NCBI RefSeq assembly: GCF_003149145.1
Contig: NZ_QGDQ01000007.1
Span: 1 to 64,000, forward strand
DNA length: 64,000 nt
Direction of reading: 5' to 3'
DNA from: Quadrisphaera granulorum
GTDB lineage: Bacteria > Actinomycetota > Actinomycetes > Actinomycetales > Quadrisphaeraceae
Shown here: one piece after another, positions 22,817 to 38,727 of the stretch
Numbering within the stretch: position 1 is the first letter of the stretch
Layout: the number at the start of each line of letters is the position of its first letter
The notes under the pieces: generated by a model
What the model was told of the DNA's origin: nothing
The model's database searches: none
What the model saw: only the letters and a program-made list of their open reading frames with translations
Position numbers and translations under genes: made by a program

Positions 22817-23863
22817 TCAGCCCCCGAAGGCGGGGACGACCTCCTCGATGAACAGCTGCAGGGACGCGCGCTTCTCCTCGTGGGTCATGCCGTTGTCGAT
22901 CCAGAAGCTGTACTCGTCGACGCCCAGCTGCTCGTACTCCTTGATGCGCCGCACCACCTCGGCCGGGGTGCCGATCATCGCGGTCCGGTGCAGTGAGTCG
23001 AGCTCGAATTCGGGCCGCTCGGCGAACTTCTCCCCCGGGCTGGGCGGCAGAAAGCCCTTCACGGGAGCTTCCTGGTTGCCGAACCAGGCATCGAAGGTGC
23101 GGTAGTAGCGCGCGACGGCTTCGGCGGCGGGGCGCCACCCGTCCGGGTCGCTCTCGGAGTGCACGTGGGTGTGGCGCAGCACCATGAGGTCGGGCCGGGG
23201 CACGTCGGGGTGCGCCGCGAGCGCCGCCTCGAACTTGTCGCGCAGCGCGACCACCTCTTCGTCGCCCTTCATGAGGGGCGTGACCATGACGTTGCAGCCG
23301 TGGGCGACGGCGAAGTCGTGCGAGGCGGGGTCACGGGCGGCGATCCAGACCGGCGGACCGGGCGTCTGCACGGGCGACGGCACGCTGGTGGAGGTCGGGA
23401 ACTGCCACAGCTCGCCGTCGTGGGCGTAGTCACCGGCCCACAGGGCCTTGACCGCGGGCACCAGCTCGCGCAGGTGCTTGCCGCCGTCGCTGGCCGCGAG
23501 GCCGGGGGTCATCCTGTCGAACTCGTACTGGTAGGCGCCGCGGGCCAGGCCCACCTCCATGCGCCCGCCGCTGATGACGTCGAGCAGCGCGCACTCCCCC
23601 GCCACGCGGATCGGGTTCCAGAACGGAGCGATGATCGTGCCGGCGCCGAGGCGGATGGTGCTGGTCTTGGCGGCCAGGTAGGCCAGCTGCGGCATCGGGC
23701 TGGGGCTGACAGTGAACTCCATCGCGTGGTGCTCACCGATCCACACGGTTCCGAACCCGCCGGCCTCCGCCATGAGCACGAGCTCGGTGAGATCGGCGAA
23801 GGCCTGCTCGTGGCTCACTGATTCGTCCCAGCGCTCCATGTGCACGAACAACGAGAACCTCAT
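22817..23863 (-). CDS. LLM-class flavin-dependent monooxygenase (TgnB-like candidate)
   Basis: 348 residues, bacterial luciferase fold. Typical stretches: MRFSLFVHMERWD, GGFGTVWIGEHHAMEF, STIRLGAGTIIAPFWNPIRVA, LDVISGGRMEVGLARGAYQYEFDR, PVWIAARDPASHDFAV and MVTPLMKGDEEV. Such enzymes use FMNH2 from a separate reductase; a flavin reductase gene lies 3 kb away in the same island. The family includes the oxygenase that opens the trigonelline ring in Acinetobacter, and the neighbouring genes match that pathway; assignment is inference. GGAGG precedes the ATG, which overlaps the tautomerase stop by 4 bases. Confidence 0.85.
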   Translation of the reverse strand: MRFSLFVHMERWDESVSHEQAFADLTELVLMAEAGGFGTVWIGEHHAMEFTVSPSPMPQLAYLAAKTSTIRLGAGTIIAPFWNPIRVAGECALLDVISGGRMEVGLARGAYQYEFDRMTPGLAASDGGKHLRELVPAVKALWAGDYAHDGELWQFPTSTSVPSPVQTPGPPVWIAARDPASHDFAVAHGCNVMVTPLMKGDEEVVALRDKFEAALAAHPDVPRPDLMVLRHTHVHSESDPDGWRPAAEAVARYYRTFDAWFGNQEAPVKGFLPPSPGEKFAERPEFELDSLHRTAMIGTPAEVVRRIKEYEQLGVDEYSFWIDNGMTHEEKRASLQLFIEEVVPAFGG

Positions 23864-24156
23864 GGTGCCTCCACGGGTGAGGGGTGGGTGTCGGATGGAC
23901 GGGGAGCACCGGACGTGCTGGGAGCGGCAGTGTGCCGAGAAGGCGGGCGCTCCGCCGCTGCCGCCGCGAGGTCTCGCTCGGCGATCGTGATGTCGGCGCG
24001 CGCCCAGTGGCTGCGCGGGATCTCGCGGACGAGCACGGTGACGTTGTCGGGATCGGCTCCGAGGGAGCGCACCACGGCGATGTGCACCTCGTGCACGAGA
24101 GCGCGCACCTGGGCTGCGCTGCGCCCTTCGGCGAGGCTCACCTCCACCAGCGGCAT
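23860..24156 (-). CDS. Tautomerase-superfamily protein
   Basis: 98 residues. After the initiator Met comes PLVEVSLAEGRSAAQVRALVHEVH, so Pro-2 can serve as the N-terminal catalytic base of 4-oxalocrotonate tautomerase-type enzymes. NVTVLVREIPRSHWARAD is the typical second strand with Arg. The last about 30 residues (after AAAAAERPP) are a low-complexity tail not usual in the family. First gene of a two-gene operon with the LLM monooxygenase. It may isomerise an enamine/enol intermediate formed after ring cleavage (inference). Confidence 0.85.
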   Translation of the reverse strand: MPLVEVSLAEGRSAAQVRALVHEVHIAVVRSLGADPDNVTVLVREIPRSHWARADITIAERDLAAAAAERPPSRHTAAPSTSGAPRPSDTHPSPVEAP

Positions 24157-24188
24157 GGCATTCCCTCGGCAGATCGACGCACCGTCTG

Positions 24189-24198
24189 TGGCATGCAA
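24189..24198. promoter_or_regulatory. Candidate GntR operator, tautomerase/LLM promoter (imperfect)
   Basis: TGGCATGCAA, 33 bases upstream of the tautomerase start, matches nine of ten positions of the motif TGG(C/T)AT(G/A)CCA found before the transporter, PF06684 and dehydrogenase genes. Confidence 0.4.
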
Positions 24199-24400
24199 GG
24201 AACGGTAGGCAGTGCCGCGAAGAGCCGTCAAGACGGATCTGCCACACAACGCCCCACGATCGCGAGACCCGCCCTACTCTGCGACTCACCGGTCCCCTAG
24301 AGCACCGCATCCACCTGCACATCTCGCAGGATCGAGCGGGATCCAAGGGACCGGGACCCCGCCGGGGCGCACCCGGCTGCAGTACCAGCTCCTCCACTCG

Positions 24401-24429
24401 TTGACAGGTTGACGGCCCCCGTCTAGCGT
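24401..24429 (+). promoter_or_regulatory. Strong sigma-70-type promoter of the transporter operon
   Basis: TTGACA (24401-24406) and TAGCGT (24424-24429) are separated by exactly 17 bases, 55 bases before the transporter ATG. Confidence 0.7.
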
Positions 24430-24432
24430 CCG

Positions 24433-24444
24433 CTGGCATACCAG
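24433..24444. promoter_or_regulatory. Candidate GntR operator at the transporter start site
   Basis: CTGGCATACCAG sits 3 bases after the -10 box, where a bound repressor would block initiation. It matches the reverse complement of the TGGTATGCCA site at 30233. Confidence 0.6.
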
Positions 24445-24484
24445 GACCGGACGGCGCCGTCGCCATTCCCCCTGAAGGAGAGCC

Positions 24485-26116
24485 ATGTCCAGTGACCTCG
24501 GCGAGCGGCCAGCCGTCTCCCTGCCCCCCAGCACAGCGCTCCCACCCGACGGCAGCGCGCCGCCACCCGCCAGCGAAGGGCGCCTCGGCTCCGTCTTCTG
24601 GGCGTCGGTGGCACTCTCGGCCACGTTCGTCATCTGGGGGGTCTTCTTCACCAAGAACCTCTCCGACGTCACCAACGCGTCGCTGAACTGGGTCACCGCC
24701 ACGTTCGGTTGGAGCTACCTGCTGGTGACGCTGGCCCTGGTGGTGTTCCTGGTCTTCCTGGCGTTCAGCCCGGCCGGCGCCATGCGCCTCGGCAAGGACA
24801 CCGACCGCCCGGAGTTCTCCACCATCACGTGGTTCGCCATGATCCTCTCGGCGGTGATGGGCATCGGCCTGGTCTCCTACGGGGTTGCCGAGCCCATCTC
24901 CCACTTCGCCACACCGCCTCACGGGCTCGCTCAGCCCGGCACGCCGGAAGCCGCCGTGAGGGCGATGCAGTACTCCTACTTCGACTGGGGCCTGCAGGCC
25001 TGGGCGATCTTCGCCGTCTTCGGCCTGGCCATGGCCTACAGCACCTTCCGCAAGGGCCGCCGCACGCTGGTGAGCCAGCTGTTCGTGCCCCTCATCGGAG
25101 AGCGCCGGGCCAACGGGCTGACCGGCAAGGTCATCGACGTACTCGCGGTGTTCTCCACCCTGTTCGGCACCACCACCTCCCTCGGCCTAGGCGCCCTGCA
25201 GGTGAACAACGGGCTGTTCAGGGTCTTCGGTGTCCCGGTCAGCTCCGTCACCCAGGTAGTGATCATCGCCGCGGTGACCGCCATCTTCACGCTGTCGGCG
25301 GTCACCGGCGTGAGCAAGGGCATCAAGTACCTCAGCCAGGGCAGCGCCGGCCTCGCCATCGCGCTGTTCGTGTTCATGCTGGTGGTCGGCCCCACCGTCT
25401 TCCTGGCCAACCTCTACATCGAGTCACTGGGCACCTGGGCCACCGACTTCTTCCGCATGAGCCTGCAGGGCACCGCCTTCGGCGGCCTGGAGTGGATGCA
25501 GTGGTGGACCTACTTCATGATGGCGTGGTGGGTCTCATGGGGGGCCTTCGTGGGTGTCTTCCTGGCCCGCATCTCCCGCGGCCGCACCGTCCGCGGCTTC
25601 ATCAGCGGCGTGCTCGTGGTCCCCAGCGTGGTCTTCTTCACCTGGTTCACCGTCTTCGGCGGCAGCGCCATCCACGTCGACATGTTCCAGGGCGGCGACA
25701 TCGCCAAGCAGACCACGGCGGACATCAACAGCGCCTTCTTCGCCATGCTCGGCTACTTCCCGCTGTCGCAGGTCACCTCGGTCATCGCCATCATTCTGGT
25801 GATCATGTTCTTCGTCTCCGGGGCGGACGCCAACACCTACGTCCTCGGGATGATGACCTCGAACGGGTCGCTGGCCCCCCGCCGCTCGATCCTCATCCTG
25901 TGGGGCGTGCTGACCGGAGTCACGGCCGTGGTCCTCATGTTCGCCGGTGGTCTCTCGGCCCTGCAGAACACCGTCATCGTCACGTCGTTGCCGTTCCTGC
26001 TGATCATCGCCGGACTGTCCGTGGCGTTCTACAAGGACCTGCACACCGACCGGCAGCTCAGCGAGGCGGCAGCCGCCCTCACGAAGTCGCCGTCGGACAG
26101 CTCCCCCACCGTCTGA
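24485..26116 (+). CDS. BCCT-family betaine/carnitine/choline-type transporter
   Basis: 543 residues with 12 predicted membrane helices after a 38-residue Pro-rich cytosolic N-terminus. Family motifs: MGIGLVSYGVAEPISHF, FSTLFGTTTSLGLGALQ, and the signature WWTYFMMAWWVSWGAFVG followed by FLARISRGRTVRGFI. BCCT carriers import quaternary ammonium compounds with Na+ or H+. It lacks the long charged C-terminal sensor of osmoregulatory BetP, which fits nutrient uptake rather than osmoprotection. GAAGGAG precedes the ATG. Located between the LLM monooxygenase and flavin reductase genes, it is the best clue that the island's substrate is a betaine. Confidence 0.93.
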   Translation: MSSDLGERPAVSLPPSTALPPDGSAPPPASEGRLGSVFWASVALSATFVIWGVFFTKNLSDVTNASLNWVTATFGWSYLLVTLALVVFLVFLAFSPAGAMRLGKDTDRPEFSTITWFAMILSAVMGIGLVSYGVAEPISHFATPPHGLAQPGTPEAAVRAMQYSYFDWGLQAWAIFAVFGLAMAYSTFRKGRRTLVSQLFVPLIGERRANGLTGKVIDVLAVFSTLFGTTTSLGLGALQVNNGLFRVFGVPVSSVTQVVIIAAVTAIFTLSAVTGVSKGIKYLSQGSAGLAIALFVFMLVVGPTVFLANLYIESLGTWATDFFRMSLQGTAFGGLEWMQWWTYFMMAWWVSWGAFVGVFLARISRGRTVRGFISGVLVVPSVVFFTWFTVFGGSAIHVDMFQGGDIAKQTTADINSAFFAMLGYFPLSQVTSVIAIILVIMFFVSGADANTYVLGMMTSNGSLAPRRSILILWGVLTGVTAVVLMFAGGLSALQNTVIVTSLPFLLIIAGLSVAFYKDLHTDRQLSEAAAALTKSPSDSSPTV

Positions 26117-26124
26117 CGCCGACC

Positions 26125-26166
26125 GCAGATTCCCCACTGCAGATTCCCCACTGCAGATTCCCGACC
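26125..26166. repeat. Three 14-bp tandem repeats after the transporter
   Basis: The unit GCAGATTCCCCACT starts at 26125, 26139 and 26153 (the last copy is partial). It is non-coding, 8 bases after the stop codon. Confidence 0.7.
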
Positions 26167-26182
26167 GCACTCACCCGACCAG

Positions 26183-26218
26183 CGCCTCGCCGCCCGGCCC
26201 CCGCCGGGCGGCGAGGCG
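26183..26218 (+). terminator. 16-bp perfect hairpin between transporter and SnoaL gene
   Basis: Bases 26183-26198 (CGCCTCGCCGCCCGGC) pair exactly with 26203-26218 around CCCC. It ends 15 bases before the next ATG, so it may attenuate rather than fully stop transcription into the SnoaL and flavin reductase genes. Confidence 0.65.
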
Positions 26219-26233
26219 GGAGAGCGAAGGACC

Positions 26234-26665
26234 ATGACTGACGACGACGACCGCGCCGCGCTCATCACACGCGTCTGGGCAGCGGCCTGGGACCACGGCG
26301 ACGTCGACGCCTTCGACGAGCTGCTCGCGCCCACCTACCGCCGGCTCACCGGCCCGCAGGACGACGGCCTTGACCTCGACGGTTACAAGGCCACCGTCAC
26401 CGCCACCCGCACGGCGTTCCCCGACTTCACCACCACCGTCGACGACGTGGTCGTCTCGGGAGACCGCGCCGCCATCCGCTGGCGCAGCTCCGGCACCCAC
26501 GCGCACTCCTTCCTGGGAGTTCCGCCCACGCACCGCCGCGTGGAGGTCTCCGGCGCGACCTTCGCCCGCTTCGAGGGCGGCCGCATCGTCCGGGAGGACG
26601 TGACCTGGGACCCGCGGTCGCTGCTGTCCGCGCTGGGCATCATCTCGATCGGACAGGACGCCTGA
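26234..26665 (+). CDS. SnoaL-like/ester cyclase-family protein
   Basis: 143 residues with a cone-shaped alpha+beta barrel pattern: LITRVWAAAWDHGDVDAFDELLAPTYRR, GLDLDGYKATVTATRTAFPDFTTTVDDVV, IRWRSSGTHAHSFLGVPPTHRRVEVSG, FEGGRIVREDVTWD. This is the SnoaL polyketide-cyclase-like (NTF2-fold) family, whose members catalyse aldol/lyase or hydrolase chemistry; the reaction here is unknown. Its stop overlaps the flavin reductase start by one base (TGATG), so they are co-translated and likely act in the same pathway. Confidence 0.85.
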   Translation: MTDDDDRAALITRVWAAAWDHGDVDAFDELLAPTYRRLTGPQDDGLDLDGYKATVTATRTAFPDFTTTVDDVVVSGDRAAIRWRSSGTHAHSFLGVPPTHRRVEVSGATFARFEGGRIVREDVTWDPRSLLSALGIISIGQDA

Positions 26666-27213
26666 TGACGATGACCACGCTGGGAGCAGCGACCATGACA
26701 ACACCGGGGGTCAACACGGTGAACGCGATCGACCCCGATCTCATGAAGCAGGTCAACCGGCGCTTCATCACCGGGGTGACGGTGGTGACCGTCGACGACG
26801 ACGGCACGCCGAGGGGCCTGGCCGCAAGCTCCTTCACCAGCATCTCCGTCGACCCGGCGACGGTGCTGGTGTGCGTGCAGCACACCTCGTCGACGCACGA
26901 CAGCCTGTTCCGCTCCGAGCACCTGGCCATCAACATCCTGTCCACCGACCAGCTCGAGGTGGTGCGGCGCTTCGCGAGCAAGTCCGACGACAAGTTCGCC
27001 GGACTCGACTGGATCGCGGGGCCGCACGGCAGCCCGCTGCTCCAGAACAGCTCGGCCCGCATCGAGGTACAGATCCGCGAGCGGCTGCGGGCCAGCACCC
27101 ACTCGGTGTTCATCGGCCGCGTCGTCCACGCCGAGACCACCAACCTGCCCCCGATGGTCTACCAGCAGGGCGGCAAGTTCTACGACGGCGACCAGCTCGT
27201 CCAACTCACCTGA
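26665..27213 (+). CDS. Flavin reductase (two-component monooxygenase reductase)
   Basis: 182 residues. FMN-binding split-barrel flavin reductase-like domain: DPDLMKQVNRRFITGVTVVTV, PRGLAASSFTSISVDPATVLVCVQ (flavin phosphate loop), LAINILSTDQLEVVRRFASK, GRVVHAET. It should supply FMNH2 to the LLM monooxygenase encoded 3 kb away. In the trigonelline pathway the reductase and oxygenase are likewise separate proteins (TgnA and TgnB). A second in-frame ATG at 26695 is also possible as the start. Confidence 0.88.
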   Translation: MTMTTLGAATMTTPGVNTVNAIDPDLMKQVNRRFITGVTVVTVDDDGTPRGLAASSFTSISVDPATVLVCVQHTSSTHDSLFRSEHLAINILSTDQLEVVRRFASKSDDKFAGLDWIAGPHGSPLLQNSSARIEVQIRERLRASTHSVFIGRVVHAETTNLPPMVYQQGGKFYDGDQLVQLT

Positions 27214-27238
27214 CCATCGGCTCCCCCTGACCTCCGCC

Positions 27239-27303
27239 CCCCGGTGACGATCAAGGACGTTGTGCACGCTGGCCGCGTACAACGTCCTTGATCGTCACCG
27301 GGG
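27239..27303. terminator. 25-bp perfect hairpin, GATCAAGGA family
   Basis: Bases 27239-27263 and 27279-27303 are exact reverse complements; the arm reads CCCCGGTGACGATCAAGGAC and on. It begins 25 bases after the flavin reductase stop and ends the transporter operon before the regulator gene. Confidence 0.75.
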
Positions 27304-27402
27304 AGAGTGCGTCCGAGTGAGCGACAGGGAGCATCCGGCTCTGCCTCCTCGACGGCTGCGTCGTCCATCGTCCATCGTCCAGCGATCGGAGAGACTGACC
27401 TC

Positions 27403-28092
27403 GTGAGCTTGTCCGAAGACACCGCGAGCCCCGGCGCGAGCATGCAGGCGCGGGTCATCGCAGAGATGCGCCGACGCATCACCAGCGGTGACTTCGCCGC
27501 CGGCGAGAGCCTGTCGGAGCTGGCCCTCGCCGAAGACTTCGGCGTCAGCCGCACCCCGGTGCGCGAAGCGCTCAAGCAGCTCCAGACCGAGGGCCTCGTC
27601 GAGATCAGGCCCCGCGTCGGCACGTTCGTCACCGAGCCGTCACGCCGCGAGGTCGTGGAGCTGTTCGTCATGAAGGAGGTCCTCGAGGGCGCCGCCGCCC
27701 GGCTCCTGGCGCAGCGCGGCCAGGTCGCCGAGCTCGACCTTCTCGAAGCCAACCTCGTCGAAGCTGACCGCGCCGTAGCGGCCGGTCAGCACGCGCGGTA
27801 CGCCGAGCTGGTGCTCGACTTCCACGACCTGCTGGTGCAGGGATCGGACAACCGGAAGCTGCAGAGCCACTACCGGACCCTCATGAACCAGCTTGCCTAC
27901 GCGCGCCTGGTAAGGACGTCCCTGAGCCAGCCCGGGCGGCCCTCGAAGTCCGACCAGGAGCACCACCAGGTGCTCGACCTCATCCGCGCCAAGGACGGCG
28001 ACAGCGCCGAGCAGGTGATGCGCGAGCACGTGCGGGCCAGCCAGCGTGCCGTCCTCATCGGGCTGAACGCCGCCACGTCTCCCCGCAGCTGA
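27403..28092 (+). CDS. GntR-family (FCD) regulator of the catabolic island
   Basis: 229 residues. N-terminal winged HTH: RVIAEMRRRITSGDFAAGESLSELALAEDFGVSRTPVREALKQLQTEGLVEIRPRVGTFV. The C-terminal FCD ligand-binding bundle contains the expected polar metal/ligand residues (FHDLLVQGSDN, DQEHHQVLDLI, REHV). The GTG at 27403 is chosen; the frame is open upstream, but that DNA contains simple repeats (GTCCATC). FCD regulators usually bind TGGTxTACCA-like palindromes. Such sites occur before the transporter, PF06684 and aldehyde dehydrogenase units, so this protein probably controls them with a pathway metabolite as effector. Confidence 0.88.
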   Translation: MSLSEDTASPGASMQARVIAEMRRRITSGDFAAGESLSELALAEDFGVSRTPVREALKQLQTEGLVEIRPRVGTFVTEPSRREVVELFVMKEVLEGAAARLLAQRGQVAELDLLEANLVEADRAVAAGQHARYAELVLDFHDLLVQGSDNRKLQSHYRTLMNQLAYARLVRTSLSQPGRPSKSDQEHHQVLDLIRAKDGDSAEQVMREHVRASQRAVLIGLNAATSPRS

Positions 28093-28120
28093 CCGGTCTG
28101 CGGCTGACCGGCTAGCACGC

Positions 28121-28924
28121 TCAACCCTGCCTGAGGAGCACCTCGAGCAGTTCCTGCGGTCGCTCCAGCGGCAGCAGGTGCCGCGTGTTGGGGACGACGA
28201 CGGCGCGCGCGTCCGGCACGGCCGCGGCCAGAGCACGGGTCATGGCCGGGGTCGAGCCGCCGTCGTCCTCACCGGTGACCACCACGGTCGGCGCGCTGAT
28301 CTGGGCGAGTCGGGGCCACAGCTCCTCGTCAGCACGCGCGAACACCTCGTAGCAGGCGAGGTAGGACTCGCGGTCGTTGGAGAGGAGCACCTTCAGCACC
28401 TCGTCCGCGAGGTCGGGCTCGCGCTCGTGCCACGCGGCGCTGAACCACCGGTCGACCGACGCGCGGGCCGATGCCTCGAAGTCGTCCGTGGCCGCCTGCA
28501 GCCGCGCCAGCACCGCGCGCCGCTGGTCGGCGGTCCGGTCGGCCACCGTGCTCACGAGACTGAGCCGGGTCACGAGCTCCGGGTGGTCCAGCGCGAGCTC
28601 CTGCGCGACGAGGCCGCCCAGGGAGAACCCGACGACGTGCCCCGGGGCCGGCATGGCGTCGGCCACGCGCTGCGCGATGTCAGCCAGGGTGCTGCCCCGC
28701 CTGACGGGGCCGGAGCCGCCGTGACCGGGCAGGTCCACGAGGTGAACCCGGTGCGTGCGGGCCAGCTCGGGCCAGACGCGGTCCCACATGCGCCGGTCGA
28801 GCCCCACGCCGTGCAGGAGCAGGATGTCGGGCCCGTTCCCGTGCACCTCGCCGGCCAGCCCCCCTGCACTCACAACCGGGCTCGTCACTGCGCCTGTCTT
28901 GGGGCTCGTCACTGCGCTCGTCAC
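28121..28924 (-). CDS. Alpha/beta hydrolase (TgnD-like candidate)
   Basis: 267 residues. Oxyanion-hole region ILLLHGVGLDRRMWDRVW, VHLVDLPGHGGSG, nucleophile S101 in VVGFSLGGLVAQELAL, Asp in VVTGEDDGGS and His in NTRHLLPLERP. Similar to enol-lactonase-type hydrolases and to the family of TgnD, which hydrolyses the N-methylformamido intermediate of trigonelline to methylamine, formate, CO2 and succinate semialdehyde. Assignment is by context only. The GTG start overlaps the upstream PF06684 gene stop by 4 bases; GTGACGAGC-type repeats give several possible starts. Confidence 0.85.
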   Translation of the reverse strand: MTSAVTSPKTGAVTSPVVSAGGLAGEVHGNGPDILLLHGVGLDRRMWDRVWPELARTHRVHLVDLPGHGGSGPVRRGSTLADIAQRVADAMPAPGHVVGFSLGGLVAQELALDHPELVTRLSLVSTVADRTADQRRAVLARLQAATDDFEASARASVDRWFSAAWHEREPDLADEVLKVLLSNDRESYLACYEVFARADEELWPRLAQISAPTVVVTGEDDGGSTPAMTRALAAAVPDARAVVVPNTRHLLPLERPQELLEVLLRQG

Positions 28925-29472
28925 TGCTCGGAGCTGAGCGGTGCCAGGCGCGCCTGCGGACGCCCCTGGGCCGCCGCTGCCAGGCCGATGATGATCTCGT
29001 CCGGACGGGGAGCGTCACCGAGGCGGACCTCGATGGACTGGTGGTGCGAACGGATCGTCGCGTCGGTGATGTGCTTGAGCGGGATGTCGAAGGTGGCTCC
29101 GGCGGGGGCTCGTTTCTCGACGGCGGGCAGCAGCGTGGTGGCCGAGGCCGCCTTCCGGAAGTGGTCGCCGAACTTCAAGGTGTGGATGAGGGCCGAGCCG
29201 TGCTCCACCTCGCCGTCCAGCCCCACGATGGCGGCCTTGCCGTAGGCCTCGACCGGGGCGCCGAGCGCCTCGACCACACGCGGCGCTAGCAGTGCACCAA
29301 GGTCGGAGGCAACAGAGTCGATGCCCGGTGCGAGGTCCTGCACGAAGCCCTGGCCGGCCCACGGGTTCTCGATGACGGCGAGGACGACGGCGGTACGCAC
29401 CGGCGCGGGCACAGCGCGGCCGCCTTCTGTGAAGACGAGCTCGGTGATGGTGCTGATCTTTCGGACGTTCAC
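28921..29472 (-). CDS. PF06684 (amino acid synthesis/DUF1185) protein, copy 2
   Basis: 183 residues from a GTG. Family features shared with its neighbour: AVVLAVIENPWAGQGFVQDLAP, APVEAYGKAAIVGLDGEVEHGSALIHTLKFGDHFR, IRSHHQSIEVRLGDAPRPDEIIIG. Structures of the family show a variant of the chorismate-mutase-like fold, and an amino-acid metabolic role was suggested; no reaction is established. Overlaps both neighbours by 4 bases in one three-gene operon with the alpha/beta hydrolase. The paired copies suggest a heteromer or two successive steps (inference). Confidence 0.87.
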   Translation of the reverse strand: MNVRKISTITELVFTEGGRAVPAPVRTAVVLAVIENPWAGQGFVQDLAPGIDSVASDLGALLAPRVVEALGAPVEAYGKAAIVGLDGEVEHGSALIHTLKFGDHFRKAASATTLLPAVEKRAPAGATFDIPLKHITDATIRSHHQSIEVRLGDAPRPDEIIIGLAAAAQGRPQARLAPLSSEQ

Positions 29473-30182
29473 GCTGCGCCTCCTGCGGTGCTGTCACTGC
29501 TTGTACCCGTATCGCCATTGCCGTGGCCGTAGGCGGCCGGGTCGCTCGGGTCGAACGGTGCGTCGGTGGTGCGGTCGCCGATGCGGGCACGCGGACGCGC
29601 GGACGTGGAGACCGCGGCGACCAGCACCAGCTCGTCGCGGCGCGGCGCGTCAGGGACGCGCACCTGGACGCTTTGGTAGTGGGACCGGGTGGCCGCCGCG
29701 GTCTTGTGCCACATCGGCACGGTGATGGTCTCGCCAGCATCACCGCGTGCCTCCGAGAAGGCGATGATCGAGGTTCCCTCCGTGGCCCACCGGAGCACGT
29801 CACCGAAGTAGGGGGTGTGGATGAAGGCGGCTCCGTGCTCGGCCTCACCGTCCAGACCCACGACGACCGCCTTGCCGAAGGCCTCGACGCGGTGGGCTCC
29901 GCCGGCGGCGTCGAGGAGCAGGTGCGCGAGCGCCCGCGCGACGAGCGGGGCCGTGGCGGCGACGGCGGGGGCGAGGTCGGCAACGTGGCCGCGCCCTACC
30001 CAGGGGTTGCGGATCACCGCGGCGGCGGCCACACGACGGACGAGCCCGTCGACGACGAGGCCGCCCTCGCGGAGCACCTCGTCCTCGTGCACGACCACCT
30101 TGCGCAGCACCGCGCCGGCGGCCTGCACCGCGCGCGCGAGGTCGAGCTCAGGTGCGGGCGCGAGCGCCGTCCCAGCTGCCAT
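29469..30182 (-). CDS. PF06684 (amino acid synthesis/DUF1185) protein, copy 1
   Basis: 237 residues from an ATG with AGAGGA upstream. Same family as the next gene: AAVIRNPWVGRGHVADLAP, HRVEAFGKAVVVGLDGEAEHGAAFIHTPYFGDVLR, TRSHYQSVQVRVPDAPRRDELVLVAA. It has about 25 extra N-terminal residues and a 35-residue polar tail. First gene of the minus-strand operon; two candidate GntR sites lie upstream. Divergent from the aldehyde dehydrogenase. Confidence 0.87.
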   Translation of the reverse strand: MAAGTALAPAPELDLARAVQAAGAVLRKVVVHEDEVLREGGLVVDGLVRRVAAAAVIRNPWVGRGHVADLAPAVAATAPLVARALAHLLLDAAGGAHRVEAFGKAVVVGLDGEAEHGAAFIHTPYFGDVLRWATEGTSIIAFSEARGDAGETITVPMWHKTAAATRSHYQSVQVRVPDAPRRDELVLVAAVSTSARPRARIGDRTTDAPFDPSDPAAYGHGNGDTGTSSDSTAGGAA

Positions 30183-30232
30183 GTGCGTCCTCTTCTCCCG
30201 GGTGCCGGTGATGCGACCCGCCAGCGGGTCTC

Positions 30233-30242
30233 TGGTATGCCA
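30233..30242. promoter_or_regulatory. Candidate GntR operator, PF06684 operon
   Basis: TGGTATGCCA, 50 bases upstream of the first PF06684 gene, is a near-palindrome identical in core to the transporter site read on the other strand. Confidence 0.55.
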
Positions 30243-30353
30243 CAGCACGCTAACCGGCACCCACGCACCCGTCAACGCACCGCAGCACAACCCGGCAATG
30301 CCCGGCCAGAACAGCATCGCCGGAACTGCATGGACCCCATTGACGATGCCGGA

Positions 30354-30367
30354 ACTGGCATGCCAGT
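30354..30367. promoter_or_regulatory. Candidate GntR operator, aldehyde dehydrogenase promoter
   Basis: ACTGGCATGCCAGT is a perfect 14-bp palindrome, 75 bases upstream of the dehydrogenase ATG and centrally placed in the divergent promoter region. Confidence 0.6.
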
Positions 30368-30442
30368 CTCCGCCAGGAGGGCCGCCAACGCCCGCGCAGG
30401 GCGACGTCTCGCGGCCGAGCGACAACCTCGAGGAGTCACGAG

Positions 30443-31936
30443 ATGAGCCTGCTCCACCCCGTGGAGACCACCCCCGCTCCGGAGCTGCCCCGCAGCTCGT
30501 GGCAGATGCTCGTGAACGGCGCGTGGGTGGGCTCGTCCTCCGGCGAGGAGCTCGCGGTGGAAGATCCGGGCACGGGCGAGGTGATCGCCCGCGTCCCCTC
30601 CGCCACCATCGACGACGCAGACCGCGCCGTGGCCGCGGCGCGTGCCGCCTTCGACGACACCCGCCGCTGGGTCGGACTGCCACCCCAGCGGCGCGCCGAG
30701 GTGCTCTTCCGGGCGGCGGACCTCCTCGACGAGCGGGCCTCCCTGTTCGCGGGCGTTGAGAGCCGCAACCAGGGAATGCCCCTGAGCATGGCTCTCGGTA
30801 GGGCTCTGCCGGACGCGGCCCGCACGTTCCGCTACTACGCCGGCTGGGCCGACAAGGTCACCGGCCGCTCCTCGGAGTCGTGGAACGGCGACCGTCGCTT
30901 CCACACGTACACGCGGCGCGAGCCGGTCGGCGTCGCCGCACTCGTCGTCCCCTGGAACGCCCCCCTCGGCATGGCCGCCTGGAAGCTCGCCCCGGCCCTC
31001 GCGGCTGGGTGCACCTGCATCCTCAAGCCCGCCGAGGAGACCCCGCTGACCGCGCTGCTGCTCGCGGAGGTGCTGCAGGAGGCCGGCGTCCCCGACGGCG
31101 TGCTGAACGTCATCACGGGCGTGGGGTCCGTCGTCGGCGCACGCCTGGCCGAGCACCCCGACGTCGACAAGGTGGCCTTCACCGGCTCCACCGAGGTGGG
31201 CCGCGCCATCGCCCGCGCCGCCACGGGCAACCTCAAGAAGGTGAGCCTGGAGCTGGGCGGCAAGTCACCTGTCATCGTCTTCGGCGACGCCGACCTCGAG
31301 CGCGCCATCCCCGGCGCGGCGGCCGCCATCTTCACCAACAGCGGCCAGGTCTGCACCGCAGGCTCGCGCCTGTTCGTCCACGAGTCGGTGCACGACGAGG
31401 TGGTGGCCGGCATCGTCGACATCGCCGAGCGCACCACCGTCGGGTACTGCACCGACCCTCGGGCGCAGATGGGCCCGCTCATCTCCCGGCGCCAGCGCGA
31501 CACCGTCATGGGCTACGTGCAGTCGGGCCTCGCCGAGGGCGGATCCCTGGCGACCGGTGGCAGCACCTCGGAGCGCGGCTACTTCGTGGAGCCGACCGTC
31601 CTCGTGGGCGCCACACCCCGGATGACCGCCGTGCGCGAGGAGATCTTCGGTCCGGTGCTGGCGGTGATGTCCTTCACGGACACCGACGACGTCATCACCC
31701 AGGCCAACGACAGTCCCTACGGCCTGGCCGGGAGCGTGTGGACCCGCGACGCGAGCACCGCCCGGACGGTGGCCTGGTCGCTGCGCGCCGGCCGGGTGGG
31801 CATCAACGTGCACGCCTGGCCGGAGGTCACCATGCCCACCGGTGGGTACAAGCAGTCCGGCTGGGGTCGCGAGCTCGGCCCCGAGGGCCTCGACCTGTTC
31901 CTGGAGACCAAATCGGTTTTCGACGCACTCGACTGA
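30443..31936 (+). CDS. NAD(P)-dependent aldehyde dehydrogenase (TgnC/TgnE-like candidate)
   Basis: 497 residues, full ALDH length. VPWNAPLGMAAWKLAPALAAG and LKPAEETPLTAL form the cofactor site; VAFTGSTEVGRAI is the Rossmann turn; general base E270 is in SLELGGKSP; catalytic C304 is in NSGQVCTAGSRL; EEIFGPVLAVM is near the C-terminus. GAGGAG precedes the ATG. In trigonelline breakdown two ALDH-type enzymes act, on the ring-opened hydroxybutyrolactone (TgnC) and on succinate semialdehyde (TgnE). Only this one is in the window, so which substrate it uses is open. Confidence 0.92.
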   Translation: MSLLHPVETTPAPELPRSSWQMLVNGAWVGSSSGEELAVEDPGTGEVIARVPSATIDDADRAVAAARAAFDDTRRWVGLPPQRRAEVLFRAADLLDERASLFAGVESRNQGMPLSMALGRALPDAARTFRYYAGWADKVTGRSSESWNGDRRFHTYTRREPVGVAALVVPWNAPLGMAAWKLAPALAAGCTCILKPAEETPLTALLLAEVLQEAGVPDGVLNVITGVGSVVGARLAEHPDVDKVAFTGSTEVGRAIARAATGNLKKVSLELGGKSPVIVFGDADLERAIPGAAAAIFTNSGQVCTAGSRLFVHESVHDEVVAGIVDIAERTTVGYCTDPRAQMGPLISRRQRDTVMGYVQSGLAEGGSLATGGSTSERGYFVEPTVLVGATPRMTAVREEIFGPVLAVMSFTDTDDVITQANDSPYGLAGSVWTRDASTARTVAWSLRAGRVGINVHAWPEVTMPTGGYKQSGWGRELGPEGLDLFLETKSVFDALD

Positions 31937-32028: not shown

Positions 32029-32134
32029 ACAAGGACACGGCCGCGACACCTCTCAGATGTCTACTGATGGGCAACACAGTCTTCTGTCAGTAGGCGCGGC
32101 GCAGGTCGCCGGCCGACAGTCCTGGAGGTCGCTC

Positions 32135-33466
32135 ATGGACACCGGAAGCACCGCTTGGATCCTCGCCGCCTCGATGGGGGTCAGCCTGATGATCCCCGGA
32201 CTGGCGCTGTTCTACGGCGGCATGACCGCCGCCCGTAGCACGCTCAACATGATGATGATGGTCTTCGGGGCGGTCGCCGTGGCCGGCATCGTCTGGGTGC
32301 TCTACGGATACTCCGCGGTCTTCGGGAACTCGTACGGCGGCCTCGGCCTGCTGGGCAACCTCGAGGAGTACGCCGGCTCCAGCCAGCTCCTGGCCGAGCA
32401 GTCCGACGCCACCCTGCCACCCGCACTGGTCGCCTCCTTCCAGGCGCTGTTCGCGGCCATCACGGTGGCGCTCATCGCCGGCGCGGTGGCCGACCGCATG
32501 CGCTTCGGCCCGTGGCTGGCCTTCAGCGCGCTCTGGGTGACCCTCGTCTACCTGCCGGTGGCGCACTGGGTGTTCGCGTTCGACGCGACCGACGGCTCCG
32601 TCGTCGGCGGGTGGATCGCCAACCAGCTCAAGGCCGTCGACTACGCCGGTGGCACCGCCGTCCACATCAACGCCGGCATCGCCTCGCTCGCCGTGGTGCT
32701 GGTGCTGGGCCGTCGCCGCTCCTGGGCCCGCCCGGAGCGTCCGCACAACCTCGTCTCCACCATGCTCGGCGCGGGCGTGCTGTGGTTCGGCTGGTTCGGC
32801 TTCAACGCCGGCTCGGCGCTGGCCGCGGGCAACGCCGCGTCCGTCGTCTTCCTCACCACCTTCGCCGCGACGTGCGCCGCGATGCTCGCCTGGCTCCTGG
32901 TGGAGCAGCTGCGCGACGGCCACCCCACGTCCCTGGGCGCCGCATCCGGCGCCATCGCCGGCCTCGTGGCCATCACGCCCTCATGCGGAGCGGTCACCCC
33001 CGTCGGGGCGATGGTCATCGGCCTTGCCGCCGGCGCGGTCTGCCCCTTCGCCGTCGGTCTCAAGCGGCGCTTCGGCTACGACGACGCGCTCGACGTCGTC
33101 GGCGTGCACCTCGTCGGCGGCATCCTCGGCACCCTCCTCATCGGCCTGCTCGCCAGCCCCGCCGCCCCTAACGGCCGCGCCGGCCTGTTCTACGGCGGGG
33201 GCTTCGCCCTCCTCGGCGCCCAGACGGTCGCCGCTGCCGCGGTGCTGGCGTACTCGTTCACGGTGACGCTGCTCATCGCGCTCGCTCTCAAGGCGACGCT
33301 CGGCCTGCGCGTGTCGGCCGAGGCCGAAGAGGACGGCGTCGACCACGCCCTCCACGCCGAGACCGCCTACGACCTGTCGCCCAGCCTGGCGGTCGGTGGC
33401 GGCTCGCTGCCCCACCCGGGCGTGGTCGCCCTCCCCGAGACCCGCACGACGACGACGACGGGCTGA
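32135..33466 (+). CDS. amt: Ammonium/methylammonium transporter
   Basis: 443 residues with 11 membrane helices. Twin pore histidines are in VHINAG (H177) and VHLVGG (H325). Other family stretches: MIPGLALFYGGMTAARSTLNMMMM and LWFGWFGFNAGSALAAGNAA. ATG 32135 has GGAGG seven bases upstream; an in-frame ATG at 32057 would add 26 residues and is less likely. No P-II gene follows, unusual for amtB and typical of amt genes linked to glnT/glx operons. Amt proteins also carry methylammonium, which fits the downstream genes. Confidence 0.93.
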   Translation: MDTGSTAWILAASMGVSLMIPGLALFYGGMTAARSTLNMMMMVFGAVAVAGIVWVLYGYSAVFGNSYGGLGLLGNLEEYAGSSQLLAEQSDATLPPALVASFQALFAAITVALIAGAVADRMRFGPWLAFSALWVTLVYLPVAHWVFAFDATDGSVVGGWIANQLKAVDYAGGTAVHINAGIASLAVVLVLGRRRSWARPERPHNLVSTMLGAGVLWFGWFGFNAGSALAAGNAASVVFLTTFAATCAAMLAWLLVEQLRDGHPTSLGAASGAIAGLVAITPSCGAVTPVGAMVIGLAAGAVCPFAVGLKRRFGYDDALDVVGVHLVGGILGTLLIGLLASPAAPNGRAGLFYGGGFALLGAQTVAAAAVLAYSFTVTLLIALALKATLGLRVSAEAEEDGVDHALHAETAYDLSPSLAVGGGSLPHPGVVALPETRTTTTTG

Positions 33467-33567: not shown

Positions 33568-34992
33568 GTGACCACCACGCTGCCCGATCCCGCCACCACG
33601 CTGCCCAGCACAGCACCCTCGACCGCCACCTCGACTCCAGTGGCCTCCGCGGCCACCCAGTCACTGGCGAGCCGGGCCCGCGCCGACGGCGTGCGCTTCA
33701 TCCTCGCGACGTTCACCACCCTGTCCGGCAAGCCGTGCTCCAAGCTCGTGCCGGTAGCCGCGGCCGACGAGCTGGAAGCCGAGGGCTGCGGCTTCGCCGG
33801 GTACGCGGCCGGTGCGATCGGACAGGTACCGACCGACCCCGACCTCATCGCCGTCCCGGACGTCTCCTCTTACACGCCGCTGCCGTCCGTCCGCGAGGGC
33901 CTGGCGATGGTGCAGTGCGACCCGCACGTCAACGGCGTCCCCCACCCCTTTGCACCGCGGGTGCTGCTGCGCAAGCAGATCCGCCGCGCAGCGGAGCACG
34001 GTCTCGCCCTCTCGGTGGGCGCGGAGGTGGAGTACTTCCTCGTGCAGCGCGGCGCCGACGGCACCCTGCGGACAGCGGACACCGCCGACGACGCCGACCA
34101 GCCCTGCTACGACGCGCGCGGCCTGACGCGCATGTACGAGCACCTCACCGCGGTCTCCGACGTCATGGAGCAGCTCGGGTGGGGCCCGTACGCCAGCGAC
34201 CACGAGGACGGCAACGGGCAGTTCGAGCAGAACTTCCACTACGCCGACGCGCTCACCACGGCCGACCGCGTCACCACGCTGCGCTACGTGATCCAGATGC
34301 TCGCCGAGCAGCGCGGCATGGTGGCCACGTTCATGCCCAAGCCGTTCACAGACCGCACCGGCAGCGGCATGCACCTGCACCTGTCCCTGTGGGGCGCCGA
34401 GGGCTCCCCCGACGGTCCCGGCCCGCGCTTCCCCGCCGGCACCGAGGACGACCCGTACGGCCTGGGCCTGTCGAGCACCGGGTACGGCTTCGTGGCCGGA
34501 CTGCTCGCGCACGCCCCGGCGCTACAGGGCCTGCTGGCCTCCACCGTCAACTCCTACAAGCGCACGGGTGCCACCTCGACGGCGTCGGGGGCCACGTGGG
34601 CGCCTCGCTCGGCCACCTACGGCGGCAACGACAGGACGCACCTGGTGCGGGTGCCGGACGCGAACCGCGTGGAGCTGCGCTCCGGTGACGGCGCCGGGAG
34701 CGCCCACCTGGCGGTGGCGGCTGCGCTCGGCTCGGGACTGGACGGCGTGCTGCGCCGCCTCGACCCGGGCGCCCCGGGCGCGCGCCCCCAGGGCGCTCCC
34801 CTGCTGCCGCGCACGCTGCTCGATGCCGTCCACCTCCTCGAGGCGGACCCGGTGGTCAAGGGCGTCCTGGACGCCGTCGACCCCACGGCGGGGGTGGCTG
34901 ACTACTACGCCCAGCTCAAGCGTGAGGAGTTCTACGACTGGCACAGCCGGGTCAGCGCCTGGGAGGTCGACCGTTACCTCACGGTGGTGTGA
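33568..34992 (+). CDS. Glutamine synthetase-like ligase (GlnT / gamma-glutamylmethylamide synthetase type)
   Basis: 474 residues from a GTG with GGAGGAA upstream. Glutamine synthetase catalytic domain: LALSVGAEVEYFLV (metal Glu), DGNGQFEQNFHYADAL, FMPKPFTDRTGSGMHLHLSLW, SYKRTGATSTASGATWAPR, NRVELRSGD. It is the GlnT/type III-like group whose close relatives (GmaS) ligate methylamine to glutamate. The following three genes are the N-methylglutamate synthase/Glx subunits, so gamma-glutamylmethylamide may be its product. Ordinary glutamine synthesis cannot be excluded from sequence. The low-complexity Thr/Ser/Pro N-terminus is not conserved. Confidence 0.88.
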   Translation: MTTTLPDPATTLPSTAPSTATSTPVASAATQSLASRARADGVRFILATFTTLSGKPCSKLVPVAAADELEAEGCGFAGYAAGAIGQVPTDPDLIAVPDVSSYTPLPSVREGLAMVQCDPHVNGVPHPFAPRVLLRKQIRRAAEHGLALSVGAEVEYFLVQRGADGTLRTADTADDADQPCYDARGLTRMYEHLTAVSDVMEQLGWGPYASDHEDGNGQFEQNFHYADALTTADRVTTLRYVIQMLAEQRGMVATFMPKPFTDRTGSGMHLHLSLWGAEGSPDGPGPRFPAGTEDDPYGLGLSSTGYGFVAGLLAHAPALQGLLASTVNSYKRTGATSTASGATWAPRSATYGGNDRTHLVRVPDANRVELRSGDGAGSAHLAVAAALGSGLDGVLRRLDPGAPGARPQGAPLLPRTLLDAVHLLEADPVVKGVLDAVDPTAGVADYYAQLKREEFYDWHSRVSAWEVDRYLTVV

Positions 34993-35076: not shown

Positions 35077-35973
35077 ATGTGCGGCATCGCCGGCCTGCAC
35101 GTGCGTGACAGCGCACTGCAGGCGCAGCTGGGAAGCCTGCTGCAGTCCATGCTCTGCAAGGCCGCCGAGCGCGGCACCGACGCCGCCGGCGTCGGTATCT
35201 ACGGAGACACGTCCCTGACGCCGGCCGGCACCTCGACGGTCTGCGTCATCGAGTCCCCCGTGTCCGCCGCGGAAGGCGCCGCCCGCCTCGACGCGGCCGG
35301 CGTCGGCCCGGTCACCTTCCGCGACGCGGGGCAGACCAGCGTCTTCTCCGCCCCGGCGCCGACCGCCCAGCTCGAGGCCGCCGTCCGCGCGGCCCTGCCG
35401 GGCGCGGTGCTCACCAGCCGCGGCTCCTCCCTCGCCGTCCTCAAGGGCACCGGCCACCCCGACGCCCTGGCGAGCACCTTCCGCCTGGCCGACGCCACCG
35501 GCTACCAGGGCGTCGCCCACACCCGCATGGCCACCGAGTCCGCAGTGACGAGCACCGGATCGCACCCGTACTCGGTGGGCCCGGACCAGTGCATGGTGCA
35601 CAACGGCTCCTTCGCCAACCACGCCACCATCCGCCGCGAGCTGCAGGCCGAGGGCATCGTCTTCGACTCGGAGAACGACACCGAGGTCGGCGCTCGCTTC
35701 GTGGCCAAGCACCTCGCCGAGGGCGCCGACGTCGAGAAGGCCCTGCGGCTGCTGTGCGAGCGGTTCGACGGGTTCTACACGCTGCTCGTCGCCACCGAGA
35801 ACTCCTTCGCCGTGGTGCGCGACGCCATCGCCTGCAAACCCGCGATCATCGCCGAGACCGACGCGTGGGTGGCCATGGCCTCCGAGTACCGCTACCTCGC
35901 CGGGCTGCCCGGCGTGGAGTCCGCCCGCATCTTCGAGCCCGAGCCGGAAGTGGTGTACGCATGGGAGCGCTGA
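35077..35973 (+). CDS. Class II glutamine amidotransferase-like subunit (MgsA/GlxB)
   Basis: 298 residues. Starts MCGIAGLHV, so Cys-2 can be the N-terminal nucleophile of class II amidotransferases after Met removal. Further motifs: AERGTDAAGVGIYG, HTRMATESAVTSTGSHPYS, CMVHNGSFANH, ENDTEVGARFVAKHL. This is the MgsA/GlxB subunit of N-methylglutamate synthase-like complexes, which hydrolyses gamma-glutamylmethylamide (or glutamine) and passes on the amine. GGAGG precedes the ATG. It overlaps the next gene by 13 bases. Confidence 0.9.
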   Translation: MCGIAGLHVRDSALQAQLGSLLQSMLCKAAERGTDAAGVGIYGDTSLTPAGTSTVCVIESPVSAAEGAARLDAAGVGPVTFRDAGQTSVFSAPAPTAQLEAAVRAALPGAVLTSRGSSLAVLKGTGHPDALASTFRLADATGYQGVAHTRMATESAVTSTGSHPYSVGPDQCMVHNGSFANHATIRRELQAEGIVFDSENDTEVGARFVAKHLAEGADVEKALRLLCERFDGFYTLLVATENSFAVVRDAIACKPAIIAETDAWVAMASEYRYLAGLPGVESARIFEPEPEVVYAWER

Positions 35974-36737
35974 GCACGCCCGTCATCGAGGACGCCCCGA
36001 CCTCGACGATCAACGACGACGACGCGGGAGCAGCTGCCGCTGGCTCTACTGTCGATGTCGTCGTCCACGACCTCCGGACCGCCACCGTCCGCGAACTCAA
36101 CGCCGCCCTGCACGCCCTGCCCGAGGGTGACTCCTCGCGCTGGCGGGTGCTCAACCCGGACGGCACGCACAGCATCGCCGCCGGGCTCGACCGCCCGGTC
36201 ACCGTCGAGATCGAGGGGCCCGCCGGCTACTACTGCGCCGGCATGAACCAGCACGCGACCGTCGAGATCCACGGCAGCGCGGGCGTCGGCGTGGCCGAGA
36301 ACATGATGTCCGGGCGCGTGCACGTCCACGGTGACGCGTCGCAGTCGGCCGGGGCCACCGCGCACGGCGGTCTGCTCGTCATCGACGGCAACGCCTCGGC
36401 GCGCTGCGGCATCTCCATGAAGGGCGTCGACATCGTGGTGGGCGGCAACGTCGGCCACATGAGCGCGTTCATGGCGCAGGCCGGCCGGCTGGTGGTGTGC
36501 GGTGACGCCGGTGACGCCCTGGGCGACTCCATCTACGAGGCCCGCCTCTACGTCAAGGGCCGCGTCGCGTCCCTCGGTGCCGACTGCGTCGCCAAGGAGA
36601 TGCGCCCCGAGCACCTCGCCGAGCTGACCGAGCTGCTGCGCGCCGCCGGTCGCGACGACGACCCGGCCGCCTTCACCCGGTACGGCTCGGCGCGCACGCT
36701 CTACAACTTCCACGTCGACAACGCCTCGGCGTACTGA
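35961..36737 (+). CDS. GXGXG-domain subunit (MgsB/GlxC)
   Basis: 258 residues. Right-handed beta-helix built of Gly repeats (GYYCAGMNQHATVEIHGSAG, GVAENMMSGRVHVHGDASQS, VVGGNVGHMSAFMAQAGRLVV), equivalent to the C-terminal domain of glutamate synthase. As a separate protein it is the MgsB/GlxC subunit that links the amidotransferase and FMN subunits. Starts inside the previous gene. The first about 40 residues are Asp/Ala-rich and probably disordered. Confidence 0.9.
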   Translation: MGALSTPVIEDAPTSTINDDDAGAAAAGSTVDVVVHDLRTATVRELNAALHALPEGDSSRWRVLNPDGTHSIAAGLDRPVTVEIEGPAGYYCAGMNQHATVEIHGSAGVGVAENMMSGRVHVHGDASQSAGATAHGGLLVIDGNASARCGISMKGVDIVVGGNVGHMSAFMAQAGRLVVCGDAGDALGDSIYEARLYVKGRVASLGADCVAKEMRPEHLAELTELLRAAGRDDDPAAFTRYGSARTLYNFHVDNASAY

Positions 36738-38107: not shown

Positions 38108-38727
38108 CGCTTCCCCGGCCCGGCTCGCAGTCCGGCGCTCGGTCGGGCTTCCGGTCGAGCAGTCGATCAGGGTCCCGGTCCGGTTTCGACGACGAGCTGC
38201 ACGTCGCCCGCTTCACGCAGGCGCGGGTGGTGCCCTGGCGCAACGGCCAGGGCACCACCCGGGAGCTGCGGCCCCGCTCCGAGCACGACGGCGGCTGGTG
38301 GGTGAGCGTCGCCGACCTCACCCAGCCCGGGCCCTTCTCGTCCTTCCCCGGTGTCGAGCGTGTGTTCACACCGGTCGGGGCTGACGTCGAGCTGACCGTC
38401 GACGGGACGACCCACCAGCTACCCGCCGGGAGGCCGTTCCGCTTCGACGGCGAGGCGGACGTCAGTGCCGCGCTGCCGTGGGGTCCGGCGCGGGCGATCA
38501 ACGTCTTCGCCGAGCGGTCTGTCTGCCGCGTCGACGTACGACGGCGCCAGACGCAGCAGCTGGTGCGCCCCGGCACCGCGCTCGTCGTCCTCGAGGGCAC
38601 GGCGCACCTGGCCGACGGGCGCGACCTCGGACCGCTCGACCTCGTCGAAGGCCCCGCGCACGTGCTGGGCACCGCGCTGGTCATCAACGTCGCCCCGATC
38701 CGCCCGAGCTCCACCACCCACCCCTGA
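38083..38727 (+). CDS. HutD-family cupin protein
   Basis: 214 residues, overlapping the end of the FMN subunit by 25 bases. After an Arg/Ser-rich N-terminal 34 residues comes VARFTQARVVPWRNGQGTTRELR, the HutD hallmark, then WWVSVADLTQPGPFSSFPGVERVFTPV and a second cupin half. HutD proteins are associated with histidine utilisation, perhaps as binders of formylglutamate; mechanism unproved. The hut operon itself is 17 kb away, so this copy may serve the glutamate-forming genes around it instead. The start codon is uncertain because of the low-complexity N-terminus. Confidence 0.82.
   Translation: MDPRSGTLTLPRPGSQSGARSGFRSSSRSGSRSGFDDELHVARFTQARVVPWRNGQGTTRELRPRSEHDGGWWVSVADLTQPGPFSSFPGVERVFTPVGADVELTVDGTTHQLPAGRPFRFDGEADVSAALPWGPARAINVFAERSVCRVDVRRRQTQQLVRPGTALVVLEGTAHLADGRDLGPLDLVEGPAHVLGTALVINVAPIRPSSTTHP

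Follow-up and report, generated by a model that had tools for sequence, protein, structure and literature searches.

In a window of 64,000 nucleotides from Quadrisphaera granulorum (contig NZ_QGDQ01000007.1, positions 1 to 64,000; the window is the whole stretch of DNA that was analysed), we studied a gene island at 22817..31936 together with the methylamine-assimilation genes that adjoin it. We found that the island is probably an actinobacterial variant of the degradation system for trigonelline (N-methylnicotinate), a plant betaine and osmolyte, and trigonelline itself is the substrate that we consider most likely. An earlier note, made from the letters alone, had proposed an actinobacterial variant of the trigonelline-type cluster for opening the ring of an N-methylated pyridinium betaine, or a cluster for a different betaine, and our results supported this: the nearest annotated relatives of the island's LLM flavin monooxygenase are TgnB of Acinetobacter sp. 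PK01 (50% identity) and a homologue on pSymA of S. meliloti (52%). Gene content, relationships, conservation and operator-like sites were seen directly and are given first.

Gene content, conservation and operator-like sites

All six families that the earlier note had named were found where it placed them, with strong Pfam scores. They are the LLM flavin monooxygenase, the oxygenase component, which forms a sister lineage of TgnB (22817..23863, minus strand; Bac_luciferase, 199 bits); a BCCT betaine carrier, the proposed importer (24485..26116, plus strand; BCCT, 584 bits); a flavin reductase of 182 aa with a single domain (26665..27213, plus strand; Flavin_Reduct, 136 bits); a GntR/FCD regulator, the proposed substrate sensor (27307..28092, plus strand; Pfam GntR and FCD); an alpha/beta hydrolase with the motif GFSLG, proposed for a TgnD-like step (28121..28924, minus strand; Pfam); and an aldehyde dehydrogenase (ALDH), proposed as a stand-in for TgnC and not as its orthologue (30443..31936, plus strand; Aldedh, 575 bits). 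Absent from that list are the adjoining methylamine-assimilation module and further genes that were found in the island: a 4-oxalocrotonate-tautomerase-like gene of 98 aa whose product starts with MP (23860..24156, minus strand; open reading frame and tblastn), a gene for a SnoaL-like protein (26234..26665, plus strand; Pfam SnoaL), and two genes for proteins of PF06684 ('amino acid synthesis', DUF1185), located at 28921..29472 and 29469..30182 on the minus strand, the start of the second being placed at 30182. The end of the tautomerase gene overlaps the LLM start by 4 bases, and its product is 52% identical over 62 aa to the tautomerase of the Arthrobacter dokdonellae cluster (tblastn, E 4e-20). 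The PF06684 genes overlap each other and the hydrolase gene by 4 bases, and the three are arranged as in one predicted transcription unit.

Named genomes were scanned with the LLM protein alone as query; 476 relatives were found, and the best 80 (75-82% identity) were kept, made up of 45 loci from actinobacteria and 35 from Pseudomonas (a single one labelled Paucimonas). ALDH genes were present at all 45 actinobacterial loci, alpha/beta hydrolase, PF06684 and flavin reductase genes at 44 each, GntR at 43, tautomerase at 38, BCCT at 26 and an NCS1 carrier at 21, while SnoaL was counted at 44 in a second pass (39 in the first, in which some were masked by a fused query). Counted by hand, BCCT occurs without NCS1 at 22 loci and NCS1 without BCCT at 17; 4 loci have both carriers and 2 have neither of them. 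Identities to the window were 77-82% for the LLM, 75-83% for PF06684 protein 1, 74-83% for BCCT where present, 55-79% for GntR, 46-79% for SnoaL and 58-70% for the reductase. The genes for PF06684, hydrolase, reductase, LLM and ALDH occur as one set in records of PK01, S. meliloti, Rhizobium, Mesorhizobium, Leisingera, Pantoea, Burkholderia and Thioclava, and likewise in 44 of the 45 actinobacterial loci. These results show that the grouping of the island genes is more than chance.

The usual actinobacterial order has GntR-flavin reductase-SnoaL-BCCT on one side and, diverging from it, the run PF06684-PF06684-hydrolase-ALDH-tautomerase-LLM; in the window the genes of this set are retained, but the run from PF06684 to LLM is split. 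At one Streptomyces locus (L014), only ALDH, tautomerase and LLM are left of the cluster, directly beside GlnT-GlxB-GlxC-GlxD-DAO-Amt, and no PF06684 gene was found in that genome. The cluster is rare in the phylum. Among 396 genomes of this phylum, TgnB as query gave a match in 3, the window's own genome included; all three fall outside the TgnB clade, and L118 among them is only distantly related.

An operator-like palindrome precedes each of the four units of the island: TGGCATGCAA before tautomerase-LLM (24189..24198), TGGCATACCA before BCCT-SnoaL-flavin reductase (24434..24443), TGGTATGCCA before PF06684-PF06684-hydrolase (30233..30242) and TGGCATGCCA before ALDH (30356..30365). The word TGGCATGCAA is also frequent before PF06684 in actinobacterial relatives. 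Exact matches to TKGYATRCMA numbered 4 in the 64 kb against 0.08 expected, all of them at the promoters of the four units, a statistic that is partly post hoc because the pattern was widened after the sites of the window and its relatives had been seen. Within 350 bp upstream, the pattern was found before the first PF06684 gene at 35 of 44 actinobacterial loci (1.0 expected), before LLM at 20 of 35 Pseudomonas loci (0.6 expected) and before PF06684 at 8 of 9 TgnB-type loci (0.2 expected). We suppose that the GntR regulator may bind this palindrome.

The oxygenase, its partner enzymes and the methylamine module

The LLM is predicted to be neither an alkanesulfonate nor an alkane oxygenase. The grouping with alkanesulfonate oxygenases that the earlier note had raised against its own proposal was not observed, the score being 38.5 bits where the alkanesulfonate monooxygenase cut-off is 518, and 53 bits where that of SfnG is 383, and the LLM also falls far below the cut-off of the luciferase family model. 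In a tree of 56 rows, hand-chosen from the extracted proteins (L036 was left out, its extracted protein being too short), the window's LLM lies in a lineage with Streptomyces, Mycolicibacterium, Nocardioides and Pseudomonas proteins (support 100/99), and it is 43-54% identical to the 11 TgnB-clade rows. A. fabrum belongs to a third lineage (43%), and a few rows fall between the lineages. The structure model is consistent with a luciferase fold at moderate confidence (pLDDT 69, residues 104-169 under 50), the pocket not being resolvable in it. Window-type and TgnB-clade LLMs were not found together: one match each was present in 38 of 38, 3 of 3 and 11 of 11 positive genomes, where the 38 had been chosen for the window's lineage, scoring in the other two sets took in the five top candidates of each genome, and some rhizobial plasmids with two LLM places were left unsorted by lineage. 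We also observed the third lineage at two loci (L091 and L114; Agrobacterium fabrum pAt and Mesorhizobium), where it is accompanied by genes for PF06684, hydrolase and ALDH; genes for a glycine-betaine importer of ProX type lie near the A. fabrum pAt locus, and this lineage may serve a different betaine.

The Pseudomonas loci combine an LLM of the window's lineage (75-77%) with partners of PK01 type. A PK01-type NCS1 carrier (53-57%) was found at 32 of the 35, and at 5 of the 35 the fetched flanks contain PF06684, ALDH, CMD and GntR genes. Among 19 Pseudomonas genomes, 4 have PF06684 within 9 kb of the LLM, 11 have it 13-55 kb away on the contig of the LLM, and 4 have it on a different contig. 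The three Pseudomonas ALDHs that were put in the tree (L033, L059 and L060) group with TgnC, the PF06684 proteins are 58-61% identical to those of tgn-type loci, and the CMD proteins of two fetched regions are 79-80% identical to PK01 CMD. Taken together, the absence of co-occurrence, the PK01-type partners in Pseudomonas and the common palindrome favour the same substrate as that of TgnB.

The window's flavin reductase is 40% identical over 140 aa to TgnA. SnoaL and flavin reductase are fused in A. dokdonellae (L086, 8490-9428), and alpha/beta hydrolase and flavin reductase are fused in Mesorhizobium WSM1497 (L088, 8205-10004), suggesting that these proteins work together. The hydrolase is 31% identical to the one beside tgnA in PK01, a gene that is not annotated as tgnD, and 46% to that of A. 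dokdonellae. The window's ALDH shares 41-44% identity with the actinobacterial cluster ALDHs and carries an operator about 78 bp before its start, which suggests a substitute recruited under the same control. A gene of the succinate semialdehyde dehydrogenase (SSADH) clade, for the TgnE step, was found outside the cluster on another contig (G000:C8:139830). The PF06684 relatives 2QTP and 3BYQ are solved structures that bear no function name, and the structure model of the PF06684 protein gave clear matches to these two DUF1185 structures alone, with no functional hint.

The adjoining module lies on the plus strand. It starts with a member of the ammonium transporter family (Amt), possibly for methylammonium (32057..33466), followed by a type III glutamine synthetase (33568..34992) that scores over the cut-off of TIGR03105. 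The best PDB matches of this synthetase are 7CQL (355 bits) and 9QUR, 'Glutamate--methylamine ligase' (320 bits), followed by a glutamine synthetase at 156 bits, and it is predicted to be of the gamma-glutamylmethylamide synthetase type. A GlxB/MgsA-like glutamine amidotransferase (35077..35973), a GlxC/MgsB-like GXGXG protein (35952..36737, start approximate) and a GlxD/MgsC-like glutamate-synthase domain protein (36764..38107) come next, so that GlxB, GlxC and GlxD-type genes stand in order; other GlxBCD roles are indistinguishable by sequence. After a HutD/Ves-like protein (38083..38727), the module ends with a flavoenzyme of the monomeric-sarcosine-oxidase family (DAO), a candidate N-methylglutamate oxidase (38996..40135). 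A homologue of this DAO (46%) lies between Amt and GlxD in Streptomyces L014. The annotated part of the window showed no four-subunit N-methylglutamate dehydrogenase, and a sarcosine-oxidase alpha-type gene on contig C8 could serve N-methylglutamate oxidation. The HutD/Ves-like gene was also observed beside Amt in Streptomyces L046, whose flanks hold no hut enzyme genes.

Seven of the 80 loci, five from Streptomyces and two from Pseudomonas, hold GlxB and GlxC genes in their flanks of about 10 kb. The GlxD-type gene was present in 19 of 40 LLM-positive genomes, among them 12 of the 21 actinobacterial ones, and in 21 of the phylum's 393 LLM-negative genomes; it lies within 30 kb of the LLM in 11 of the 19, of which 3 were not known beforehand (Mycolicibacterium L006 and L022, Pseudomonas L067). 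The plain counts (12 of 21; 11 of 19) are biased upward, since the LLM-positive genomes (38 or 40) were hand-picked and included the window and all seven loci already known to hold Glx genes. When the cases known beforehand were removed, 6 of 15 LLM-positive actinobacteria had GlxD against 21 of 393 (Fisher p 1.6e-4; 1.5e-9 with them included), both values ignoring shared ancestry, and the gene lay within 30 kb of the LLM in 3 of 11. The tgn locus of PK01 is flanked by sarcosine-oxidase-type subunits and Amt; L125 is similar, with the subunits and GlxD at a TgnB-clade cluster, and the window's GlxD is 81% identical to the gene in this genome, which also carries sarcosine-oxidase-like genes. 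These results indicate that the coupling of LLM and methylamine genes recurs in several lineages and is far from general. In PK01 (L100, 1453-8407), purU, folD and sarcosine-oxidase-type subunits were also observed directly before the tgn genes, pointing to the handling of one-carbon units from methylamine.

Proposed route and its alternatives

The substrate, the order of the reactions and every catalytic and regulatory role are what we infer from these observations. Carriers of the BCCT family take up quaternary amines, and the methylamine-assimilation genes adjoining the island fit an N-methylated substrate. The tgn pathway, as Perchat and co-workers reportedly described in 2018, breaks trigonelline down to methylamine, formate, CO2 and succinate semialdehyde. 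In the proposed route, BCCT would import the betaine (trigonelline), the short flavin reductase would feed FMNH2 to the LLM oxygenase, and the pyridinium ring would be opened. ALDH would oxidise the ring-opened product, and cleavage by the alpha/beta hydrolase would give methylamine, formate, CO2 and succinate semialdehyde, as in the tgn chemistry, while the tautomerase, SnoaL and the two PF06684 proteins may act on unstable ring-opened intermediates. Succinate semialdehyde would be oxidised by the SSADH encoded elsewhere in the genome. Methylamine would be held by Amt and assimilated via gamma-glutamylmethylamide synthetase and a GlxBCD-type N-methylglutamate synthase, and either the DAO at 38996 or an enzyme of sarcosine-oxidase type encoded elsewhere would oxidise N-methylglutamate back to glutamate. 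GntR would control the four island units via the TKGYATRCMA palindrome. A wider proposal, which we put forward as possible and short of probable, is a single-locus actinobacterial route by which an N-methylpyridinium betaine would yield succinate semialdehyde and glutamate, with a distinct oxygenase lineage, a recruited ALDH and a PF06684 pair doing undescribed steps, and a single-subunit sarcosine-oxidase-like enzyme replacing the four-subunit dehydrogenase.

Several results weigh against the trigonelline reading. The earlier note had suggested placing the LLM against TgnB in a tree; TgnB proved to be its nearest annotated relative, and membership did not hold, as the window's LLM forms a separate lineage outside the TgnB clade (11 rows, 100/99), from which its lineage differs at 22 positions that are fixed differently in the two. 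Strictly classified, this LLM is not TgnB, and it clears none of 25 NCBIfam cut-offs among the matches listed (29 matched). Among the partners, the reductase has 182 aa against 310 aa in TgnA, lacks the C-terminal half and is neighboured by a separate SnoaL gene; the ALDH of the window shares 40% identity with TgnC and lies outside the clade of TgnC and 15 sampled cluster ALDHs in a quick tree without bootstrap, and no TgnC-type ALDH above 45% was found in the window's genome. The window's GntR matches PK01 GntR over 91 aa at 34% only, and the actinobacterial NCS1 carriers belong to another subgroup, at about 25-32% to the PK01 carrier. The TKGYATRCMA site was not found at 9 of 44 actinobacterial, 15 of 35 Pseudomonas and 1 of 9 TgnB-type loci; a narrower pattern had no site in A. 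dokdonellae and the third-lineage loci; and the first pattern showed no enrichment in the window when one mismatch was permitted (5 sites against 2.6 expected, a number reached by 11 of 100 shuffles). The GlxD gene was not found in 21 of the 40 LLM-positive genomes searched.

The distinct LLM lineage with its 22 fixed differences and the low identity of the actinobacterial NCS1 carriers, together with BCCT in 26 of 45 relatives against ABC or NCS1 carriers in TgnB-type records, would also fit the same architecture acting on another N-methylated pyridinium or heteroaromatic betaine, such as homarine, N-methylisonicotinate or N-methylpyridinium, with methylamine released likewise. We regard this, the strongest of the alternatives, as unlikely: the Pseudomonas LLMs of the same lineage stand with a PK01-type carrier, a TgnC-clade ALDH and a PK01-type CMD, and the two lineages were not found in one genome. 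For homarine in particular, a passage of PMC8269262 holds TgnAB unlikely to act on it for steric reasons.

A substrate that is an N-heteroaromatic with no N-methyl group (for example a derivative of nicotinate, pyridine or histidine, linked to the hut operon), with the methylamine module as an unrelated neighbour, appears very improbable. It would draw on the absence of GlxD from about half of the LLM-positive genomes and on a hutU-hutF-hutI-hutH operon with formimidoylglutamate deiminase that lies directly upstream of the island (15289-21227); in Leisingera, too, a hut operon, with hutG, lies next to an island-type cluster on its upstream side. The flanks of all 80 loci were free of matches to hutU, hutF, hutI and hutH, and the linkage was set aside for this reason; in addition, GlxB and GlxC lie close to the LLM in Streptomyces, Pseudomonas and the window, and the BCCT family speaks for a quaternary amine. 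Slighter still is the prospect of an island that has been remodelled or is decaying, its LLM unit separated from partners, its TgnC-type ALDH lost and its pathway no longer whole: the split run, the missing original ALDH, an LLM branch (0.26) longer than most of its lineage and the lack of LLM in 5 of 5 genomes of the window's genus would agree with this, against which stand intact reading frames, an LLM that departs at just 5 of the positions fixed in 97% of its lineage, and an operator before all four units, ALDH included, suggesting recruitment of the ALDH under the same control.

If the trigonelline reading is true, many Streptomyces, Mycolicibacterium, Nocardioides and Pseudomonas genomes would gain a testable carbon and nitrogen source, the annotations 'LLM class oxidoreductase' and 'amino acid synthesis family protein' would be given a pathway, PF06684, with two solved structures and no function name, would be open to assay, and the operator would be a handle for finding more members. 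No literature on such an actinobacterial cluster was noticed at abstract level, many subscription papers lying outside this coverage.

Elsewhere in the window, the GXWXG/DUF4334 and SDR genes at 21272-22765 were left out of the island, GXWXG being matched at 0 of 80 loci and the SDR matches reaching just 29-32%. Two long imperfect hairpins (27220-27322 and 41428-41518) share the core GACGATCAAGGA(C/A)GTTGT; both are intergenic, one after the flavin reductase gene and the other after an M20 peptidase gene, and they are probably a repeat element of this genome. The minus-strand genes at 42260-47878, for a siderophore-interacting protein, an MFS carrier and two ABC transporter genes, probably serve iron uptake.

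Comparison with known systems

Compared with the Acinetobacter tgn locus (PK01 plasmid NZ_CP094644.1), the island is alike in its LLM/reductase pair, ALDH, alpha/beta hydrolase, PF06684 protein and GntR, in an operator of the same form and in methylamine-type genes nearby (Amt and sarcosine-oxidase-like genes). It differs in its LLM of a sister lineage (50%), its short reductase with separate SnoaL, its two PF06684 genes, its tautomerase, BCCT in place of NCS1, an ALDH that is not the TgnC orthologue, an SSADH outside the cluster, and the order and strands of the genes. In the N-methylglutamate pathway, the genes are named gmaS, mgsABC and mgdABCD; the window resembles it in the type III synthetase, the GlxB/GlxC/GlxD-type genes in order and Amt, and differs in having a monomeric-sarcosine-oxidase-type protein, not the four-subunit dehydrogenase, with a sarcosine-oxidase alpha gene on another contig. 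The loci of Streptomyces, Mycolicibacterium, Nocardioides and other actinobacteria have related operator words, whereas in the window the run is split and the ALDH replaced.

The S. meliloti pSymA cluster (CP073679.1) shares PF06684, hydrolase, reductase, LLM (52%) and ALDH genes with the window, and an operator is located 33 bp before its PF06684 gene; it differs in an ABC importer, a NIPSNAP protein, a single gene run and a single PF06684 gene. This is the one place on pSymA with an LLM homologue, in a run between nod and nif genes. As stated in a passage of PMC4207669, wild-type S. meliloti grows on trigonelline and a pSymA-less strain does not, and Goldmann et al. 1991, by its title, assigns trigonelline genes to the pSym symbiotic region; the pSymA cluster is plausibly the trc locus. 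With neither a TgnB-clade LLM nor a TgnC-clade ALDH, the island is not a strict member of the tgn system, and it would work like that system, with a predicted substrate and predicted reactions.

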